From the NCBI RefSeq assembly GCF_028858535.1, contig NZ_JAPMOU010000024.1, positions 1-64,000 on the forward strand: a DNA stretch of 64,000 bases. The letters run 5' to 3'. The first letter of the stretch is position 1, and the number at the start of each line of letters is the position of its first letter. Below the pieces are notes generated by a model that made no database searches, was not told where the DNA came from, and saw only the letters and a program-made list of their open reading frames with translations. Shown one piece after another: positions 13,936 to 24,347 of the stretch. Both the position numbers and the translations under genes were made by a program. This DNA is from Spartinivicinus poritis. GTDB taxonomy: Bacteria > Pseudomonadota > Gammaproteobacteria > Pseudomonadales > Zooshikellaceae.

Positions 13936-14190
13936 TCAGCTTAATAATATTAAGAAATTCTTACTTGCCCTCTATGTTTGCATACTTATCTTGTTGTTAG
14001 TTTTTTCACTAATGTAAAACAGTCTTCTAAAGACCCACTCAAATCAACTCATCACCATTTAAAATAAAGAAAATTACGACTACATTTGAAGTAGAGTAGT
14101 TTTGTTTTAAATTAATATACTGTTTAAAATAATAGTATTTTTATATTACACAAAAACAACAACAGCCTCTGGGTGGATAGGGCAAATAAA

Positions 14191-15462
14191 ATGTTAAAAT
14201 TTATTATTGTATTAGTTGTAATAATTGCTATAGGGGTTGGAGGCGCGCAGTTTTACATTACATATAAAGTTGACAAGTTTTTAGAGCAAATGAGTAGTTA
14301 TGCAGCAATGACTGGATTTGACTTTTCTTATAAAGATATCAAAACAACCTATGTTGGAGCGTTAGAGGTAAGTGAAGTAGAGTTTGGTATTCCAATTCCT
14401 GAAGACAATGTTACCTTTAATACTTCCATCGACTTGATGAGAGTGAAGTTCCCTTCTTTATTAGATGTAATCCAGCTTTTTTACAAAGACATGGAAGAGT
14501 TACCTAGTAGTTTAAAGTTTGAAATTAATGGCGTTAGAATTTCTCCTGAAAATATAGTTAAGTTAAATCCATTTATACGAAAGCCTACCTACTATCCATT
14601 TTATTTAGCTGAGTCAGAACTAGGTCTTGATGAAACCATATTAGATGCATCTGTAGGTTATACATATTACGAGTATACTTCGGGTGCTGATATAGATCTT
14701 AACTATGAAGTTAGAGGGATAAAATCTTATAGTATGAATGTTAAAGTAAAAGAAATACCCTCTATAAATATAAAGCAACTATTCATGATGTATCAGACAC
14801 CACAGCTCCAACTGATGAATATAAACTATACGGATCAGTCATATAATGAGTTATGGATAAAGCTTTGCAAAGAAAAACATAAGATTACAGCTGACCAATG
14901 TATAGATAGAGAGATAAAAATTGCAAATAAACATTTAAAAAGAATTTATAGTCTTTCTTTTTCGGAGCAATACATAACAAAAGTTAAAGAGTTTATAAAG
15001 GCAACTGGAGGGAATATTAAAGTAAGTGTAGATCTAAGTGACGGATCTAAATCATTCTTTGACGCTATAATTAAGTGGGATGACCCAATTAATGCGATTA
15101 TTCAAGAAAGTGCAATGTTGTCTATTAATGGAGAATATATACAGCCAATTTTTAGCCGGCTATCAGAAGAAGAAATTGCTAAATCAGTAGATGTAATAGA
15201 AGAGTCAGATGAACCAATAAAGAAAAAAGAAAGGAAAAAGATAGTATTAAAGGTATATGATGATTTTAGACAGTATGTTGGGAAGAAAGTATTAATTATA
15301 ACAGATAAAAGAAAGCAATATATCGGCACTGTACTGGATGCAAAACAGGAAGGGATCAAAATTAAAGTACGACTAGAAAAAGGAGATACATTTACTTATC
15401 GTCTAGCCTATGACCGGATTAAATATGCAGAGGTTTATCAGACAGAGCCACTCTATCGTTAA
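14191..15462 (+). CDS. membrane-anchored protein of unknown function
   Basis: I do not recognise this 423-residue protein. The first 25 residues form one membrane segment (LKFIIVLVVIIAIGVGGAQFYITY), giving a signal anchor with the rest probably periplasmic. The middle is rich in Tyr, Ile and acidic residues and may be a beta-rich fold, loosely reminiscent of YdgA/DUF945-type proteins. After a Lys/Glu-rich linker near residue 335 (KKKERKKIV), the last 65 residues (FRQYVGKKVLIITDKRKQ...) look like a small SH3-like barrel. A GTG at 14173 is in frame, but TAGGGC seven bases before the ATG at 14191 favours the later start. It is the first gene after gyrB and stands alone. Confidence 0.6.
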   Translation: MLKFIIVLVVIIAIGVGGAQFYITYKVDKFLEQMSSYAAMTGFDFSYKDIKTTYVGALEVSEVEFGIPIPEDNVTFNTSIDLMRVKFPSLLDVIQLFYKDMEELPSSLKFEINGVRISPENIVKLNPFIRKPTYYPFYLAESELGLDETILDASVGYTYYEYTSGADIDLNYEVRGIKSYSMNVKVKEIPSINIKQLFMMYQTPQLQLMNINYTDQSYNELWIKLCKEKHKITADQCIDREIKIANKHLKRIYSLSFSEQYITKVKEFIKATGGNIKVSVDLSDGSKSFFDAIIKWDDPINAIIQESAMLSINGEYIQPIFSRLSEEEIAKSVDVIEESDEPIKKKERKKIVLKVYDDFRQYVGKKVLIITDKRKQYIGTVLDAKQEGIKIKVRLEKGDTFTYRLAYDRIKYAEVYQTEPLYR

Positions 15463-15686: not shown

Positions 15687-17342
15687 TTAATAGATATACT
15701 CTGGTGGTCTTGGTGGATCAATAATAATAGGGGGCTCAATAATAGGAGGCCATCTTGGTGGGTCAATAACAATAGGAGGGTCTATTGGTGGCCTTATTAT
15801 ACTGATATTCATGCACAGCCAATTAACCTCGTAGTCCTCACACTTTTTATCTGACTGATGTTTATTTAAACACTGTAAGCCTGTTCTGGGAGATAAGTTA
15901 AGTCTTTCTTTGAGAGTATAATGATTTTTTTTGTTTTTGGCTGAACGGGCTTGAATAGCAATAGGGTTTAGGCATTTTTTAGGTCGCTTTTCTACTTCAC
16001 CAATAAAATTAGGTTTTTGGCTATTTTTCCAACCACTCCAATGATAGCTAATCTTCGGTGTTGCTGGGTTAGAAGAGCAGTGTGATGATGAGGACTTCCA
16101 ACGAAGGTTATTATCAACTTTCCCTTTTATACAGTTGATATCTAAAATAGTACGATAGTGCTTAATGTTTTTGTTTGGTATTAGTAAACTCAGATTACCT
16201 TTTTTTTGCTGTAGGATTTGTTGGAAGTTTGCTTTAGGAATAAACTGACTGTTAGTATCGATAGTATTAGCCAATATTTTTCGTTTAACCCTATTTAAAG
16301 TAGTTGTGGTTCTTCTATCAAACTCAAGCTTAGTTTCAGTGAATAATGTTCTGCCTAGTGCATCTTGAAGTAATGTAGAGTCAGGTAATAAACCTGGCTC
16401 TCCTGGTCTTCCCATGTGTTTCAGTTGGATACCACATTGATTTATATCGTTACAGGAAAGTAACTGTTTCATTTTATTTCGAACAGCTTTTTTAGAAAAT
16501 AGTGGGTTGATACCATTTCTTAAATCTTTAAAGGTAAAGTTGTATAGTTTTATCCAGTCTACATCTAGATTATACGTTTTAATGGGCTGAGAGCTGATAG
16601 ACCAGTCAACAACACCTGTTAAAAGATGTTGCCAGCCTTCACCACTGGATAATAAGTTATTAATATCTGGCTTCCAGCCAGGTAAAGTAACTGCATCAAA
16701 TGTAATTCTATTATTAGTGGAGCCAATTGTTGGCAGGTTAGAGTTTAAACTATAAAGTAAATTAATATTAATATCGTAAACTTGATCGGTACCTTTTAAA
16801 TGGCAAATAGGTATTGTTACAAACGGATCTGAACCACCTTCTACAGGTATTTTTTCAATTTTACAATCTAAAGCCAGTTGACCATTTTCAATATCAAATG
16901 CAGTTGCTATAAAGTTAAGTTCTGCATACTGATATAGAGCAGGCATTATTCGTGTGTAGCCTTGTGCCCTTGCTTCTTTTATTAACTTAGCAAGCGAACT
17001 GGTATTTTCTAAGGTAGTAAATTGTCCTCCAAAGCCTACCATCTCTTCACCTAAAAAAGGTTGGTTTTGACCAAATAAAGTAACAGCATAAAAGCTAGGG
17101 ATTTGCCACTGAGGAGCTCTAAGCGCATGGCTATATTCATTACTGTTTAATTTATAAGTTTGCTGAGCTATTGCCCCATATCGGGATATGTATTGTAGAG
17201 TTTTCGGTTGTTTTACATCTCTAATAATATGAAATTGATTTAGAACTTCAGCTGAAAAATTTACAGCACTGATTGTATTAGAGGAATTAATAAGTAATGG
17301 TATACTGCCTAGCAAAGCCAATTGCTTTAGTCGTTTTTTCAT
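15687..17342 (-). CDS. secreted protein with proline-rich tail, paralog of the protein at 19669-20916
   Basis: Unknown function. The 551-residue protein has a signal peptide (MKKRLKQLALLGSIPLLINSSNTISA). It shares with the upstream paralog the N-terminal NFSAEVL.NF, an LPGW.../VDW-type segment, and three matching Cys pairs (DCKIEK...PICHL, LLSCNDINQCGIQL, INCIKG...SSHC), suggesting conserved disulfides. Unlike the paralog it has about 100 extra residues, basic and then strongly proline-rich with repeated DPP/PPI units (for example PPIVIDPPRWPPIIEPPI), ending in EYIY. The tail may be an extended stalk or binding segment. It is the last gene of a four-gene minus-strand operon, 69 bases after the cytochrome gene. 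Confidence 0.65.
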   Translation of the reverse strand: MKKRLKQLALLGSIPLLINSSNTISAVNFSAEVLNQFHIIRDVKQPKTLQYISRYGAIAQQTYKLNSNEYSHALRAPQWQIPSFYAVTLFGQNQPFLGEEMVGFGGQFTTLENTSSLAKLIKEARAQGYTRIMPALYQYAELNFIATAFDIENGQLALDCKIEKIPVEGGSDPFVTIPICHLKGTDQVYDININLLYSLNSNLPTIGSTNNRITFDAVTLPGWKPDINNLLSSGEGWQHLLTGVVDWSISSQPIKTYNLDVDWIKLYNFTFKDLRNGINPLFSKKAVRNKMKQLLSCNDINQCGIQLKHMGRPGEPGLLPDSTLLQDALGRTLFTETKLEFDRRTTTTLNRVKRKILANTIDTNSQFIPKANFQQILQQKKGNLSLLIPNKNIKHYRTILDINCIKGKVDNNLRWKSSSSHCSSNPATPKISYHWSGWKNSQKPNFIGEVEKRPKKCLNPIAIQARSAKNKKNHYTLKERLNLSPRTGLQCLNKHQSDKKCEDYEVNWLCMNISIIRPPIDPPIVIDPPRWPPIIEPPIIIDPPRPPEYIY

Positions 17343-17411
17343 ATATAAAATGTGTCCTTGTTGGCGATAGATATCGTTGAATATAAATTTTTTACATAGA
17401 GTAAAAATAAA

Positions 17412-18596
17412 CTATTTATTTTTACTGCAATGATTTTTGCCAGATAAATCAGGACAGCTTTCATTTATCCAGCTTAAAAATAACTGCCTCATTGGCTTGG
17501 GCAGTGCAGGGGCTGCCATTGGCATGCCTGGGGAATGTGCCTGTATTCCCGTTTCTATTTCTAGTGATCTGACTTCCAGACGGCGCCAAATTTCCCATGG
17601 AGAGTTATTTCTTAACCACTGACTTATTGTTATTTGGCTGGTCGTATCAAAATATTGTTTTGCTCGTCCGTCAATACCGTGGCAATGAACGCACATACCA
17701 TCTCTAAAAAAACGATCCCAGATATAACTGATAGCTTTATCATTTAGCTTTGTCGCTTTTTTTAAAGGCTTGCCTACAACAGTTTTACTTCGTTGATGAA
17801 TACGCTGTTTGGCTACTTGATAGGATTGATTGAATAGTTGTTGTAAGCCTTTAGCTGTAGCTTTATTTACCTTAATAACAGGCATCGTTCGTTTACTACC
17901 AGGTTTTTCTAATAACCCATTAGTAAAATGATAAATCCAATCAGCAGAAAAAAGACTCAATCCTTGTTTATCGTAAGGGGCTATAGTGGACTCATGACAA
18001 CTTTTACATTGTTGATTCCAAATCTTTAGTGCTTGTGTGTTATCTGCAGCTACTGTTGTAAAAATAGTCTTTGGTAAATCCTGGTTATTATTTAACTTGC
18101 TAATTACGTTGTTAAATTGTTGCTTATTTAATGCTGGATAAGCCAGCATAGTTGTGTACGGCACTTTAATTTTATTTAAGCTAACAGGTTGACGTAAAAA
18201 GTTGAAAAGTGCTTCAGGGGAAAACCTTGGTACATCATTAACAGAAAAAACGAGCTGTTGAGGTGCATGCATATAAGATAAAGGGGAGTGACTTAATTGA
18301 GAAAGACGTTTTTTACTTACAGGTAAAGCAAATCGTCTTTTATCAAACACCCCTGTATTAACATTAATAGCAACATCGTTAATCTCCCTATGACAGCCAT
18401 AACACTGGCTATCACGCCAATGACCAAAGCCATTTGGAAATACTCCATCTATCGGTTTTACACGAGCTATTGTATGACAACCATAACACTCATCAACATA
18501 GCCAGCAGTTGCTGCTGGCTGTGAGTAAAAAACAATAAACGGCAGAAAAACAACGAATAAATAAACAGCTCGAAGCTTGTATGCAGTCATAAACAA
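17412..18596 (-). CDS. periplasmic multihaem c-type cytochrome
   Basis: The 394-residue protein has an N-terminal hydrophobic segment (VYLFVVFLPFIVFYSQPAATA) that is probably a signal peptide. Four haem-attachment motifs are present: CYGCH at 37-41, CYGCH at 65-69, CKSCH at 197-201 and CVHCH at 302-306. The first two are close together like a small dihaem domain; the last two sit in separate cytochrome c-like halves. A Met-rich GMPMAAPALP near the C-terminus may give an axial Met ligand. It should carry electrons outside the inner membrane. The stop lies 69 bases before the proline-tailed paralog, and the start is 11 bases after the unknown gene at 18608, so one operon is likely. Confidence 0.85.
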   Translation of the reverse strand: MFMTAYKLRAVYLFVVFLPFIVFYSQPAATAGYVDECYGCHTIARVKPIDGVFPNGFGHWRDSQCYGCHREINDVAINVNTGVFDKRRFALPVSKKRLSQLSHSPLSYMHAPQQLVFSVNDVPRFSPEALFNFLRQPVSLNKIKVPYTTMLAYPALNKQQFNNVISKLNNNQDLPKTIFTTVAADNTQALKIWNQQCKSCHESTIAPYDKQGLSLFSADWIYHFTNGLLEKPGSKRTMPVIKVNKATAKGLQQLFNQSYQVAKQRIHQRSKTVVGKPLKKATKLNDKAISYIWDRFFRDGMCVHCHGIDGRAKQYFDTTSQITISQWLRNNSPWEIWRRLEVRSLEIETGIQAHSPGMPMAAPALPKPMRQLFLSWINESCPDLSGKNHCSKNK

Positions 18597-18607
18597 TACT
18601 ATAAAAA

Positions 18608-19570
18608 TCAGAAGCTAATACTGAACCTGGTAGTAGTTTGGCCTGCTTGTACTTCGATTGGTTTTAAGGCTGTTTCCTGGTCTATTTCAACATTAAACTC
18701 AACAAGCTTTTTTGGAGTCACTGGGTCGGTTACTGTTTCTTCAGTTGTATTTGAATTTACTTCTTCATCAGATAGCGGCTCGTGTTGATTGATAGCCTGA
18801 AGGTTAAAATTGTTAGTAAATAGTTGCCAATGTTCTTTTGTTTGCTGGTCAGTAGCAGTACTGAATAAAGTAGGGTTATTGATCGCTAACTTTAAAGATG
18901 AATATAAGAAATCTGGCAGTTTACCAGAGTAAGTTTGTTTTTCCTCATTAAAAGTAAGAATATTATCCTTAGCTAAAATACTGATAATATCAGGTTGAGA
19001 AATAGTAATAGGATCTATTTTGCTAGCAATATCTGCATGGAACTGAACAGCTTGGTTACTGTTTAAAAATTCAACTAGCTGTTGCTCTGGATGTTCTATG
19101 CCACTGTTAGCGAATTGCTCTTTTGGATAAATAATCTTTAGCTTGCATACACTTGGGTAACCACCAATAAAACTTTCCAGCTTATGGACAGTGTATAGCC
19201 TTTCAAGCTCTTGTACTAATGCTTCTGATGGCTCGCAAAGTGTTGCATCTTCCGGTAATAAATTAATCTTTGCATCAATAACATCATAGTTATTTAAAAA
19301 ATCATAATAAATTTCATTATTATCTTTTCTTATACTGGGATTCAGTGTTACCCAAATAACTTTAGTATTTCTGTTTAATCGAGTTGGTCTAAGTGATTTT
19401 TGATAGTAGTTTTGATACCAGATAGGACCTTTCTTCAACTCTTTAACTGGTACATGAATAATGCCATTATCTTGTATCATTCGATCCCAATCTAAATCAG
19501 CAAAACGAATATTTTCTGCATAACTATAGCAAGCTAAGCTAGCTAAGCCTGCAGCCAGCAATTTCTTCAT
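18608..19570 (-). CDS. secreted protein of unknown function in cytochrome operon
   Basis: I do not recognise this 320-residue protein. It has a clear signal peptide (MKKLLAAGLASLACYSYA) and a strong ribosome-binding site (GGAGGAG). The mature part has two Cys about 50 residues apart (DATLCEPSE and YPSVCKLKI), possibly one disulfide. A Thr/Glu-rich linker (NSNTTEETVTDPVTP) near residue 275 leads to a short C-terminal strand-like segment. It lies between the first paralog (98-base gap) and the cytochrome gene (11-base gap), which implies a role in the same extracytoplasmic complex or process. Confidence 0.6.
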   Translation of the reverse strand: MKKLLAAGLASLACYSYAENIRFADLDWDRMIQDNGIIHVPVKELKKGPIWYQNYYQKSLRPTRLNRNTKVIWVTLNPSIRKDNNEIYYDFLNNYDVIDAKINLLPEDATLCEPSEALVQELERLYTVHKLESFIGGYPSVCKLKIIYPKEQFANSGIEHPEQQLVEFLNSNQAVQFHADIASKIDPITISQPDIISILAKDNILTFNEEKQTYSGKLPDFLYSSLKLAINNPTLFSTATDQQTKEHWQLFTNNFNLQAINQHEPLSDEEVNSNTTEETVTDPVTPKKLVEFNVEIDQETALKPIEVQAGQTTTRFSISF

Positions 19571-19668
19571 AATGAAATCTCCTCCGTGAATAGCAAGGAC
19601 ATCAACATAGTAATGAATATGTTGATGTCCACTAAAACTTTAAATGAATAGTTAATACATAAACCGTA

Positions 19669-20916
19669 TTATTGTTGGTTTGCTATATCACGACATGCTG
19701 GATCGCCCATATCCCAAGACATTTTTCCACCTAAAGTACCGGTTACACAGCCTATATTCATAGTGGTTGCTGAGTTTTGAACAGTTCTGCCTGGGTTCCA
19801 GTATAAGTAGCGAGTTTCATTCTTTTTCACAAGAACTTTTTGGTAATTCGCTTTTAAGGTAAAGACAGAACTACGGCTTTTCTTCAGAGGATCAATTTGC
19901 GACTCTTGGTAAACAGCTACTTCGTTAAATAACTCTGTTTCAAGATCTTTTTGGAAAGCTCTTACTGCATCATTAAATGCTGCATCACTTGGAGGTTGAT
20001 CCTTATATTGACCGTCAGAGTGAAGGAACTCTAATTTAACTCCGCATTGTTCTTCGTTAGGGCAAGTTGCTAGATTTTGGAAAAAGGCTTCAATCTCCAC
20101 ATCTACACAAGCAAAGTTATGAATGGACATATAAGTATGTGCTTGCTCAAAAATTTGTTCCCACTTAATTTTTGCGCGAGCAACTCTTGTTTTCCGCTCA
20201 GTACCAATTTCCCACTCAACATCGGCGGTGATTAAATCGTCCCATTGAGCACCATCATCAAGTTTATCTTGAATTAGTTGATCAAAACCTGGTAATAAGA
20301 CTGCTTGGAAAGGAATATTTTGAGAGACTGTGCTTTTCCCCTGAGGGGCTCTGGAGTTTAGACGATACAGCATGTCTGTTGGGTAGTACTCTCCATCGAA
20401 ACCTTTAACTTCACACTCTACAACTGTACCTAAACCAGTAATATCTTCGCTATCCTGACAGCGAACATCGGCTCTACCTGAACCAATATCAATTGCAGAC
20501 ACCATAAACTTAGCAGCTGCTTTGCTAGCAGGCGCGGCACGTACAGTTAAACCATAGCTTGATGCTTCATTATTTAAACGCTGAAGTGCACCTAGGCTAC
20601 CAGATGTTGAAAATGAACCACCTAAGTTAACAATGGTTTCTCCCTCAAAAATGCCACGAGTGACCTCCCGAGAAGACGCTGCAAAACGTGGACGAGGAGC
20701 TGTTGTATGGGTTGCTTGTAGGGCAATATTACCTAATTTAGGTACATACCAGAGAATTTTATTATTATCTGAATCCGCAAATAAATCGAAGTTAGCCAAA
20801 ACTTCTGCTGAAAAGTTTTGAGTAACTGGCTTATCTCTAGGATCCATCGGTGTGGCATTTATATTAATGCTGCAAGCAGCAATAGCTGTTGCTAAAATGA
20901 GCGCTTTTTTTTGCAT
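19669..20916 (-). CDS. secreted protein, paralog of the protein at 15687-17342
   Basis: Unknown function. About 415 residues with a signal peptide (KKALILATAIAACSININA). The upstream ATG at 20928 would put the GGAG inside the gene, so I prefer 20916, with GGAG six bases before it. The mature N-terminus NFSAEVLANFDLFADSDNNKIL is followed by YVPKLGNIALQ. The Cys pattern (VRCQDSE...VVECEV, ATCPNEEQCGVKLEF, IGCVTG...DPAC) matches the second paralog, as does LPGFDQLIQDKLDDGAQW...VEWEI. It is the first gene of the four-gene operon. The family could be a surface or periplasmic binding protein for the cytochrome's substrate or metal, but this is inference from context. Confidence 0.65.
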   Translation of the reverse strand: MQKKALILATAIAACSININATPMDPRDKPVTQNFSAEVLANFDLFADSDNNKILWYVPKLGNIALQATHTTAPRPRFAASSREVTRGIFEGETIVNLGGSFSTSGSLGALQRLNNEASSYGLTVRAAPASKAAAKFMVSAIDIGSGRADVRCQDSEDITGLGTVVECEVKGFDGEYYPTDMLYRLNSRAPQGKSTVSQNIPFQAVLLPGFDQLIQDKLDDGAQWDDLITADVEWEIGTERKTRVARAKIKWEQIFEQAHTYMSIHNFACVDVEIEAFFQNLATCPNEEQCGVKLEFLHSDGQYKDQPPSDAAFNDAVRAFQKDLETELFNEVAVYQESQIDPLKKSRSSVFTLKANYQKVLVKKNETRYLYWNPGRTVQNSATTMNIGCVTGTLGGKMSWDMGDPACRDIANQQ

Positions 20917-21157
20917 CCATGACTCCATATTTCATTAATTTTTTTGTTTATTTTGAAACGGGAGTAGTGTTAAAAAATTAACAGGTGATTACAATCAGCC
21001 AAAAGTCTAAGCTATACCAAGGTATTAATTTTAATATGAGTGATATGAGAAAATATAAATAATAAAAATTCCATTAAGCTGAGTCGGTAAAAAAGTAAAA
21101 AGTCTTATAAACTCAGCATGAATGGATTAGCGACTATTTAGCTTATTAAGAAATCTG

Positions 21158-23069: not shown

Positions 23070-24347
23070 TTACAGTTTTCTTTGGGTCAATAGAGGTTTT
23101 GCCAGCCACTCTCTTCCTTTTAACATACCGTGCCAATAAACAGCAGGAAGCACTCTATGCTTCAGGTGCCAGGCTAGGCGACTGGGTTGAGTACCTTCAT
23201 TGAGCCAGCTGGGAAGGGTAGGCGATACTTTACCTCCATATAAAAATTCGGCCAGGACGATTTTGCCTTTTTCTACTGTTAATGGGCATGAGCCATAGCC
23301 ATTGTAAGCAACTGTTGGGTTATTTCCATTTAGGCAATGAATAACATTTTCAGCTACAACGGGGGCTTGTTTACGAGCTGCGGCAGCAGTTTTTGCATTA
23401 GGGGTAGAGCAGACATCACCCACCCCAAAGATGTTGTGATATTGAGTGTGCTGCAGTGTATCTGAATGAACACTCAGCCAGCCGTTTTCATCAGCTAAGG
23501 GGCTATTGCGAATAAAATCCGGTGCTAGTTGAGGAGGACATACATGTAAAAGGTCGAAAGGTTTTTCGATGTTTTTTTGTGAGCCCTCAGAATCGGTTAG
23601 AGTAAAGATGGCAGTTTTACTATTAGCATCTACTGCTGTTAAATTATGTTTATAGAAAAGGTTCACAGAATATTTACGGATATATTGCATTAAGGCTGGT
23701 ACATACTCCTTTACACCAAACAAAGTATCACCTGCGTTATAAAAACCTAGCTGAATATTATTTAATCTATGGTGTTTAAGCCAGTGATCAGCTGATAGAT
23801 AAAGTGCTTTCTGAGGAGCACCTGCACATTTAATGGGTAAAGTTGGCTGAGTAAAAATGGCTTGTCCGGATTGTAGTTGGGTAACCAGTTTCCATGTATA
23901 GGGTGCTAGCTCAAATGAGTAATTAGAAGTAATTCCTTGCCTGCCAAGTGCTTGTGGTAGCCCCTCAATAGCAGCCCAGTCTAGCTTGATACCTGCAGCG
24001 ACAACCAAAGCTTCGTAATTGATGGTTTGATTGTTGGAAAGAATAACTCGGTTTTGTGCTGGCTTAAAATATTTAATTGCGTGCTTTACCCAAGTAGCTT
24101 TTTTGGGGATAACATCTGCCATTGGTTTTACTGTTTGTTTGGCTTTAAATACTCCAGCACCAACAAGTGTCCAGCCTGGCTGATAATAGTGGCAGTTGGC
24201 CGGATCAATAATAACGATATTTAAGTCAGGCTGGCGATTTAATAAACTGGCACTGGTTGCTATGCCGGCAGCGCCGCCACCCACAACAACGACATCATAA
24301 TGAGAGGCTTTATTTTCTGTAGTTGAATTGGAAGTAAGGTGACTCAT
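23070..24347 (-). CDS. sqr: sulfide:quinone oxidoreductase (FAD-dependent)
   Basis: SQR oxidises sulfide to sulfane sulfur and passes electrons to quinone at the membrane surface. The 425-residue protein has the FAD site DVVVVGGGAAGIATSASLL, the HYYQPGWTLVGAG motif, PIKCAGAPQKALYL with a conserved redox Cys, GVGDVCSTPNAKTAAA for the FAD ribityl end, and the C-terminal YGSCPLTVEKGKIVLAEF and LPAVYWHGMLKGREWL. This is the pattern of the group that includes mitochondrial SQR. A good ribosome-binding site (AAGGAATG) precedes the start. Its genomic partner may be the decayed sulfur-oxidation gene at 60953-61322. Confidence 0.9.
   Translation of the reverse strand: MSHLTSNSTTENKASHYDVVVVGGGAAGIATSASLLNRQPDLNIVIIDPANCHYYQPGWTLVGAGVFKAKQTVKPMADVIPKKATWVKHAIKYFKPAQNRVILSNNQTINYEALVVAAGIKLDWAAIEGLPQALGRQGITSNYSFELAPYTWKLVTQLQSGQAIFTQPTLPIKCAGAPQKALYLSADHWLKHHRLNNIQLGFYNAGDTLFGVKEYVPALMQYIRKYSVNLFYKHNLTAVDANSKTAIFTLTDSEGSQKNIEKPFDLLHVCPPQLAPDFIRNSPLADENGWLSVHSDTLQHTQYHNIFGVGDVCSTPNAKTAAAARKQAPVVAENVIHCLNGNNPTVAYNGYGSCPLTVEKGKIVLAEFLYGGKVSPTLPSWLNEGTQPSRLAWHLKHRVLPAVYWHGMLKGREWLAKPLLTQRKL

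Follow-up and report, generated by a model that had tools for sequence, protein, structure and literature searches.

Through in silico analysis of a 64,000-nucleotide stretch of the Spartinivicinus poritis genome (contig NZ_JAPMOU010000024.1, positions 1 to 64,000, here called the window; the host genome is 6.83 Mb), a cluster of four genes has been characterized, all read in the same direction on the minus strand. According to the list of open reading frames they encode, successively, an exported protein A, an exported uncharacterised protein C, a tetrahaem cytochrome (cyt) and protein B, a paralog of A. A signal-peptide-like N-terminus was recognised by inspection in each of the four products, and the genes are separated by 98 (A–C), 11 (C–cyt) and 69 (cyt–B) bases. 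An earlier note on this DNA, made from the letters alone, had likewise described gaps of 11 to 98 bases and a signal-peptide-bearing uncharacterised protein between two paralogs. Its span of 15687..20916 does hold the four genes, and its upper end is the second ATG (MQKK...) of gene A, the likely start, the reading frame itself extending to 20928. Comparison of the window genome with two congeners points to purifying selection on all four genes (dN/dS 0.047-0.165). The cluster is real, conserved, lineage-restricted and exported. It is also likely redox-related, because the unit includes a four-haem cytochrome whose presence is tracked by a His/Cys/Asp/Glu motif in A. A full-text literature search, whose coverage leaves out most subscription journals, returned no report of an A–C–cyt–B cluster, and the word "cytochrome" is absent from the accessible passages of PMC7484904.

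Table 1. Features of the A–C–cyt–B cluster (window coordinates)
Feature	Position	Strand	Description
Gene A	19669-20928	-	419 aa; first cluster gene; exported protein; four family-invariant Cys
Gene C	18608-19570	-	320 aa; exported, uncharacterised; invariant Cys C112, C142
Cytochrome gene	17412-18596	-	394 aa; TTG start, ATG at 18590 also possible
Gene B	15687-17342	-	551 aa; exported A paralog; C-terminal WxxW domain and Pro-rich tail
WxxW domain of B	15813-16040	-	B residues 435-510; PF13330 (Mucin2_WxxW)
HNFACVDVE	20095-20121	-	A residues 270-278; HNxxCxDxE; candidate metal or thiolate redox site
RNA hairpin in A–C gap	19597-19630	-	13-bp; candidate attenuator, terminator-like or RNA-stabilising element
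Upstream element TAATACCTTGGT ... CTTAGACTTTTGGCT.ATTGTAAT	20988-21029	-	mostly kept upstream of gene A (three Spartinivicinus genomes); perhaps a promoter or regulator site

The conservation of the gene order had been set beforehand as one of two tests that could refute the proposal. The order A–C–cyt–B is kept in all five genomes with an intact close homologue of the cytochrome, from three genera and two families. These bearers are three Spartinivicinus species, in which the cluster sits downstream of gyrB and is transcribed towards it; Agarilytica rhodophyticola (Cellvibrionaceae), on plasmid pSU1; and genome G819, of a third genus within family f16, which we infer to be Cellvibrionaceae. 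In G819 the cluster, on a 2.3-Mb contig, is preceded by an extra A-type gene. G756 of family f16, whose contig C2 yields coordinates identical to those of Agarilytica, evidently represents that organism and is counted with it. The cytochromes of Agarilytica and G819 are 38.7% and 33.5% identical to the window protein, and Agarilytica B is 23.7% identical to window B. The cytochrome is rare: a homologue was found in 3 of the 390 genomes of the order sample, in 3 of the 120 genomes of family f16 (one of them a fragment) and in a single record, pSU1, among 72,556 plasmid records. In the class samples only the window genome was positive (1/369 for A/B, 1/274 for the cytochrome), and no match was returned by a search of genome contigs with A/B and the cytochrome or by a search of IMG/VR and phages with the cytochrome.

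The fragment belongs to G760, where the sequence directly upstream of a lone B gene aligns with positions 329-377 of the cytochrome profile (E 5.5e-12), a remnant expected if a whole cluster had decayed. No recognised A, C or cytochrome lies beside the B lipoproteins of G483, G827 and G766, the last of these loci being a 7-kb contig of a 68%-complete genome. In G766 the lone B lipoprotein faces an 885-aa protein (L063:1461-4118 (+)) with a match to a lactonase-type propeller (PF10282), two CXXCH motifs and a sub-threshold match to a RoxA-like cytochrome; the presence of a c-type haem protein beside the A/B family there may be due to chance. With an E threshold of 0.01, neither PHROGs nor PADLOC yielded a match to A, B or C, and a phage or defence origin of the cluster was dropped, no PHROGs/PADLOC match having been obtained for the proteins scanned.

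The cytochrome carries exactly four CXXCH motifs (at residues 37, 65, 197 and 302), in keeping with the four haems noted earlier, and Pfam analysis resolves it into an N-terminal CXXCH pair followed by two class I-type haem domains at the C-terminus. Comparison of six cytochromes, including that of the paralogous locus III described below, revealed conserved features: (i) the four CXXCH, Met238 and Met358 are invariant; (ii) Tyr108 and Tyr153 are invariant; (iii) Met150 is invariant in the five proteins left when locus III is omitted; (iv) no His outside CXXCH is invariant. The conserved residues of this Met/Tyr/His pattern may serve as haem ligands. The haem domains fit the generic class I and cbb3-type subunit III cytochrome c families PF00034 and PF13442 and the doubled-CXXCH family PF09699; the last of these passes the cut-off in the Agarilytica and G819 proteins, the window protein scoring below it. 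No named NCBIfam cytochrome model was above its cut-off for the window protein. The NapC/NirT domain PF03264 failed (10.3 bits vs 24.1, E 0.59), as did the OmcA/MtrC model TIGR03507 (10.8 bits against a cut-off of 209.3, E 0.12), and no MauG/CCP Pfam domain was found at E <= 1. The cluster resembles the OmcA/MtrC surface multihaem systems in that an exported multihaem cytochrome is encoded together with partner proteins. However, OmcA/MtrC have about ten CXXCH instead of four, and Pfam detects no porin among the four cluster genes. Pairs of the MbnH/MbnP and CorA/MopE type, which likewise combine an exported protein of unknown fold with a c-type haem protein, differ from the present cluster, which has four haems, two A/B-type proteins plus C, and no MauG/CCP domain found.

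A and B are homologous (blastp E 2.5e-32, 28% identity over 407 aa), so the paralogy proposed for them stands. Their description as Cys-rich holds only mildly, at 1.9% Cys in A and 1.8% in B against a mean of 0.91% (range 0.18-2.46) in the 22 other open reading frames of the window. The conserved Cys noted in both are present: Cys 157, 172, 394 and 412 are invariant in all 20 rows of the family alignment and likely form two disulfides, the predicted pairs being C157-C172 and C394-C412. Trp239 is kept in 19 of the 20 rows. No His or Met column reaches 40% across these rows, which argues against a metal-binding role for the A/B family as a whole. The B proteins of Cellvibrionaceae look like lipoproteins. 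They join the other A/B proteins by profile comparison (hhalign probability 97.5, E 8.8e-12, 353 columns), and the A/B proteins are one family judged by significant sequence and profile similarity and the four invariant Cys. In the family tree, weak at its deep forks, Spartinivicinus A and A2 (the A paralog of a second locus) group with the A proteins of Agarilytica and G819 at 87/96. As a side observation, the nine A-type proteins inspected share P-(M/I/L/V)-x(1-3)-P just past the likely signal cleavage site; this motif, not seen in B or B2 (the B paralog of the second locus), could be a subunit-contact peptide.

It had been stated that neither paralog was recognised. This is right for A, which, like C and the rest of B, gave nothing above Pfam or NCBIfam cut-offs, and partly wrong for B, whose WxxW domain matches PF13330 with 45 bits (cut-off 22.4) over profile positions 1-88 of 88. 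Beyond this add-on, the profile searches matched A and B to no family with an unrelated role. PF13330 is the CysD-type domain of secreted mucins. It occurs in 3 of the 194 genomes of the order sample, there confined to B and B2, and the Pfam scan did not find it in the B proteins of Agarilytica, G819, G827, G766 and G760. Spartinivicinus B and B2 thus share a domain with the Mucin2_WxxW proteins that the B proteins of the other cluster bearers are without, and since it is limited in this way, WxxW does not define the system.

A short motif in A follows the cytochrome. H270, C274, D276 and E278 are common to the five A proteins of A–C–cyt–B clusters, and six cytochrome-bearing clusters each encode one A-type protein with HNxxCxDxE, the diverged locus III protein among them. 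These six rows amount to three independent lineages. In a scan of 25 family members, the motif was found in 0 of the 19 others, namely 3 A2, 2 extra A-type proteins encoded upstream of A, 2 short D proteins, 6 Spartinivicinus B/B2 and 6 B lipoproteins; A2 may have lost it once. By chance, codons spelling HNxxCxDxE should turn up once in every 100 shuffled windows. The A proteins of Agarilytica and G819 have no Cys besides the four invariant ones and that of the motif, which is therefore probably unpaired. From this pattern, HNxxCxDxE in A is a plausible metal or thiolate redox site, and it might bind a metal, haem or a substrate.

AlphaFold2 models of A, built from 14 and 20 rows, are strand-rich and have a pLDDT of 75 in both cases (pTM 0.59 and 0.66); the second places the motif between helices 256-269 and 276-288. 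A Foldseek search of the PDB with both models gave no match at E <= 0.001, and the second-look structure matches (VIA rows) were weak and mostly beta-sandwich. The modelled fold of A is best counted as neither known nor new. Sequence searches of solved structures gave no convincing match for A, A/B, C or the cytochrome. In protein C, two Cys and no His or Met are invariant over 8 rows. Its homologues were seen solely beside A-type genes (3/37 relatives); by profile search they occur in five of ten chosen genomes, the same five that bear the cluster. hhalign gave no support for assigning C to the A/B fold.

Each of the three Spartinivicinus genomes analysed encodes four or more A/B family members. 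Each also possesses a second locus (II), formed from A2-C2 and a divergent B2, and no cytochrome was found in the 19-20 kb read around it. S. ruber additionally carries locus III (L050:3759-9223 (+)), composed of an A-type 444-aa protein about 20% identical to A, three uncharacterised genes and a 406-aa four-haem cytochrome. A 365-aa protein of this locus is homologous to the product of a gene near locus II (28% over 361 aa). Profile comparison supported neither the 365-aa protein of locus II as A-type nor the 321-aa protein of locus III as a C homologue. Other relatives are the short D proteins (285 and 296 aa) of G003, from the sister genus, and of S. ruber, and a 725-aa Agarilytica protein with two F5/8-type galactose-binding-like stretches. 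Genes of the YHYH type (PF14240) are neighbours of B2 in S. ruber and of D, some 2 kb away, in G003 (L019:6868-7860 (-) and L020:6344-7483 (-)). In G000, B2 is followed by a 207-aa reading frame (L015:13029-13652 (+)) whose first ~26 residues resemble a YHYH protein (E 1e-3), perhaps what a deleted YHYH gene has left behind. Four uncharacterised genes (658, 200, 363 and 365 aa; L015:3093-8059 (-)) are found downstream of C2 in G000 and G001 and are not at the same place in S. ruber.

A further trait of the A-type genes concerns the gap behind them. When gaps that follow A, A2 and the A-type gene of locus III were folded, all nine showed a strong hairpin, although these are not independent, seven coming from the three Spartinivicinus genomes. 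The folding z values are -2.8, -2.5 and -3.5 for the A–C gaps of Spartinivicinus, -4.3 for Agarilytica and -3.6 for G819; -5.0, -3.6 and -3.6 for the A2-C2 gaps; and -2.9 over 137 bases at locus III, where the next gene is not shown to be C. Four cyt–B gaps had no strong hairpin (-1.5, -0.5 and -0.2, with 0.2 for the folded part of the G819 gap), and the other control stretches were mixed, three being flat (0.6, 0.5 and -0.5) and one reaching -3.7. After extra A-type genes, values of -2.2 (A'-A gap) and of -5.4 and -2.5 (two stretches of the gap between the 725-aa gene and A) were obtained. A known structured RNA was dropped, as no Rfam match was above gathering.

A2 has a high codon adaptation (0.737); C (0.690, first of the 41 window reading frames) and A (0.677, fourth) are above average, and cyt (0.605) and B (0.604) are average, the window mean being 0.617 (sd 0.038). 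Comparison of the window genome with its congeners gives A lower dN and dS values than the other three genes, the dS being 0.23 vs 0.39-0.80 to G001 and 1.05 vs 1.40-1.48 to S. ruber. Between Agarilytica and G819, A is 67.6% identical and the other three proteins 35.8-47.4%; between Agarilytica and the window, A is 35.7% identical, slightly below the cytochrome. The hairpin after A, its low divergence and its codon adaptation together suggest that A may be made in excess. A sigma-70 promoter scan was uninformative, with 10 sites vs 19.6 in shuffles.

Two neighbouring genes in the window are worth recording. A Pyr_redox_2 FAD/NAD-type oxidoreductase, presumably resembling sulfide:quinone oxidoreductase, is encoded upstream of the cluster (23070-24347 (-)) and, judged by its first residues, also occurs in both congeners. 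Downstream of gyrB lies a gene for an uncharacterised 429-aa protein (14173-15462 (+)), which evolves fast (dN/dS 0.20-0.22; 53-62% identity among congeners) and for which the Pfam scan gave a sub-threshold RimP C-terminal-like match alone.

Taken together, these observations are read here as an exported redox assembly: A would hold the candidate metal or thiolate site, with the tetrahaem cytochrome as its partner, B for anchoring or binding and C as an accessory; a probability of about 0.45 is assigned to this reading. A would be the main, disulfide-stabilised subunit, its motif Cys being spare beyond the paired ones. The cytochrome would exchange electrons with the site in A, or with a partner bound by A, and relay them to or from the respiratory chain, the direction of flow being a matter of supposition. 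The longer, motif-free B would tie the assembly to the outer membrane in Cellvibrionaceae, where it is lipoprotein-like, or to an outside surface in Spartinivicinus through its WxxW domain and Pro-rich tail. C would be an accessory or assembly factor. The extracytoplasmic redox complex proposed in the earlier note is borne out in part, as an exported four-gene unit with a tetrahaem cytochrome, conserved order and signal-like N-termini; that its products form one physical complex is a supposition.

A different role for the cytochrome would be maturation: it could oxidise A or B after export, at a Trp, a Tyr or the HNxxCxDxE Cys, A and B being a surface adhesin or coat. The MauG-type enzyme MbnH reportedly acts on MbnP in this manner, a tentative parallel. 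The absence of an invariant His outside CXXCH, together with the two invariant Tyr, would allow an open haem, Trp239 is a near-invariant candidate target in A/B, and the motif co-occurs with the cytochrome; on the other side, Met150 could fill one haem site and the cytochrome has no MauG/CCP match in Pfam. This explanation appears unlikely. Doubt weighs somewhat more on a purely adhesive or protective surface layer of A, B and C for contact with a host or glycans, with the cytochrome a periplasmic carrier merely sharing the operon. The mucin-type domain of B and B2, the galactose-binding-like stretches of the 725-aa relative and the existence of family members with no linked cytochrome would suit it. 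However, the cytochrome lies inside the cluster in all five genomes and has left a remnant in a sixth, the diverged A-type gene of S. ruber is again linked to a four-haem cytochrome, and HNxxCxDxE tracks the cytochrome.

The metal role raised in the earlier note is retained in part. As a metal binder, A could serve oxidation, reduction or acquisition of metal at the cell surface, and in 6/6 cytochrome-linked A proteins the His, Cys, Asp and Glu of its motif could act as ligands. The lack of His or Met conserved across A/B or in C speaks against a family-wide role, and uptake as such finds no support; no metal transporter or oxidase family was detected in the four genes (Pfam) or among the annotated pSU1 neighbours, the other flanks not having been systematically annotated. 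This function is held to be improbable. Comparably speculative is an extension of the exported redox assembly that would make it a new kind of bacterial surface redox assembly, in which abundant A, bearing a His-Cys-Asp-Glu metal or thiolate centre of a novel type, would polymerise on or coat the cell, anchored by B and wired or matured by the cytochrome, glycan or mucus modules being swapped onto B or an extra A. No chaperone, usher or sortase, which would mark chaperone-usher or another known type of pilus or surface fibre, was matched in Pfam or NCBIfam by the four window genes, the rest of the genome not having been searched for these.

The partners of exported cytochromes often reveal new electron-transfer or protein-maturation chemistry. 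Here, the three partner proteins (apart from the WxxW domain of B) fall outside the libraries tested, yet the two families share their gene order, whether the cluster is carried by a plasmid or by a chromosomal contig. The system is compact and portable, and its function, once established, would be the first for the A/B family.

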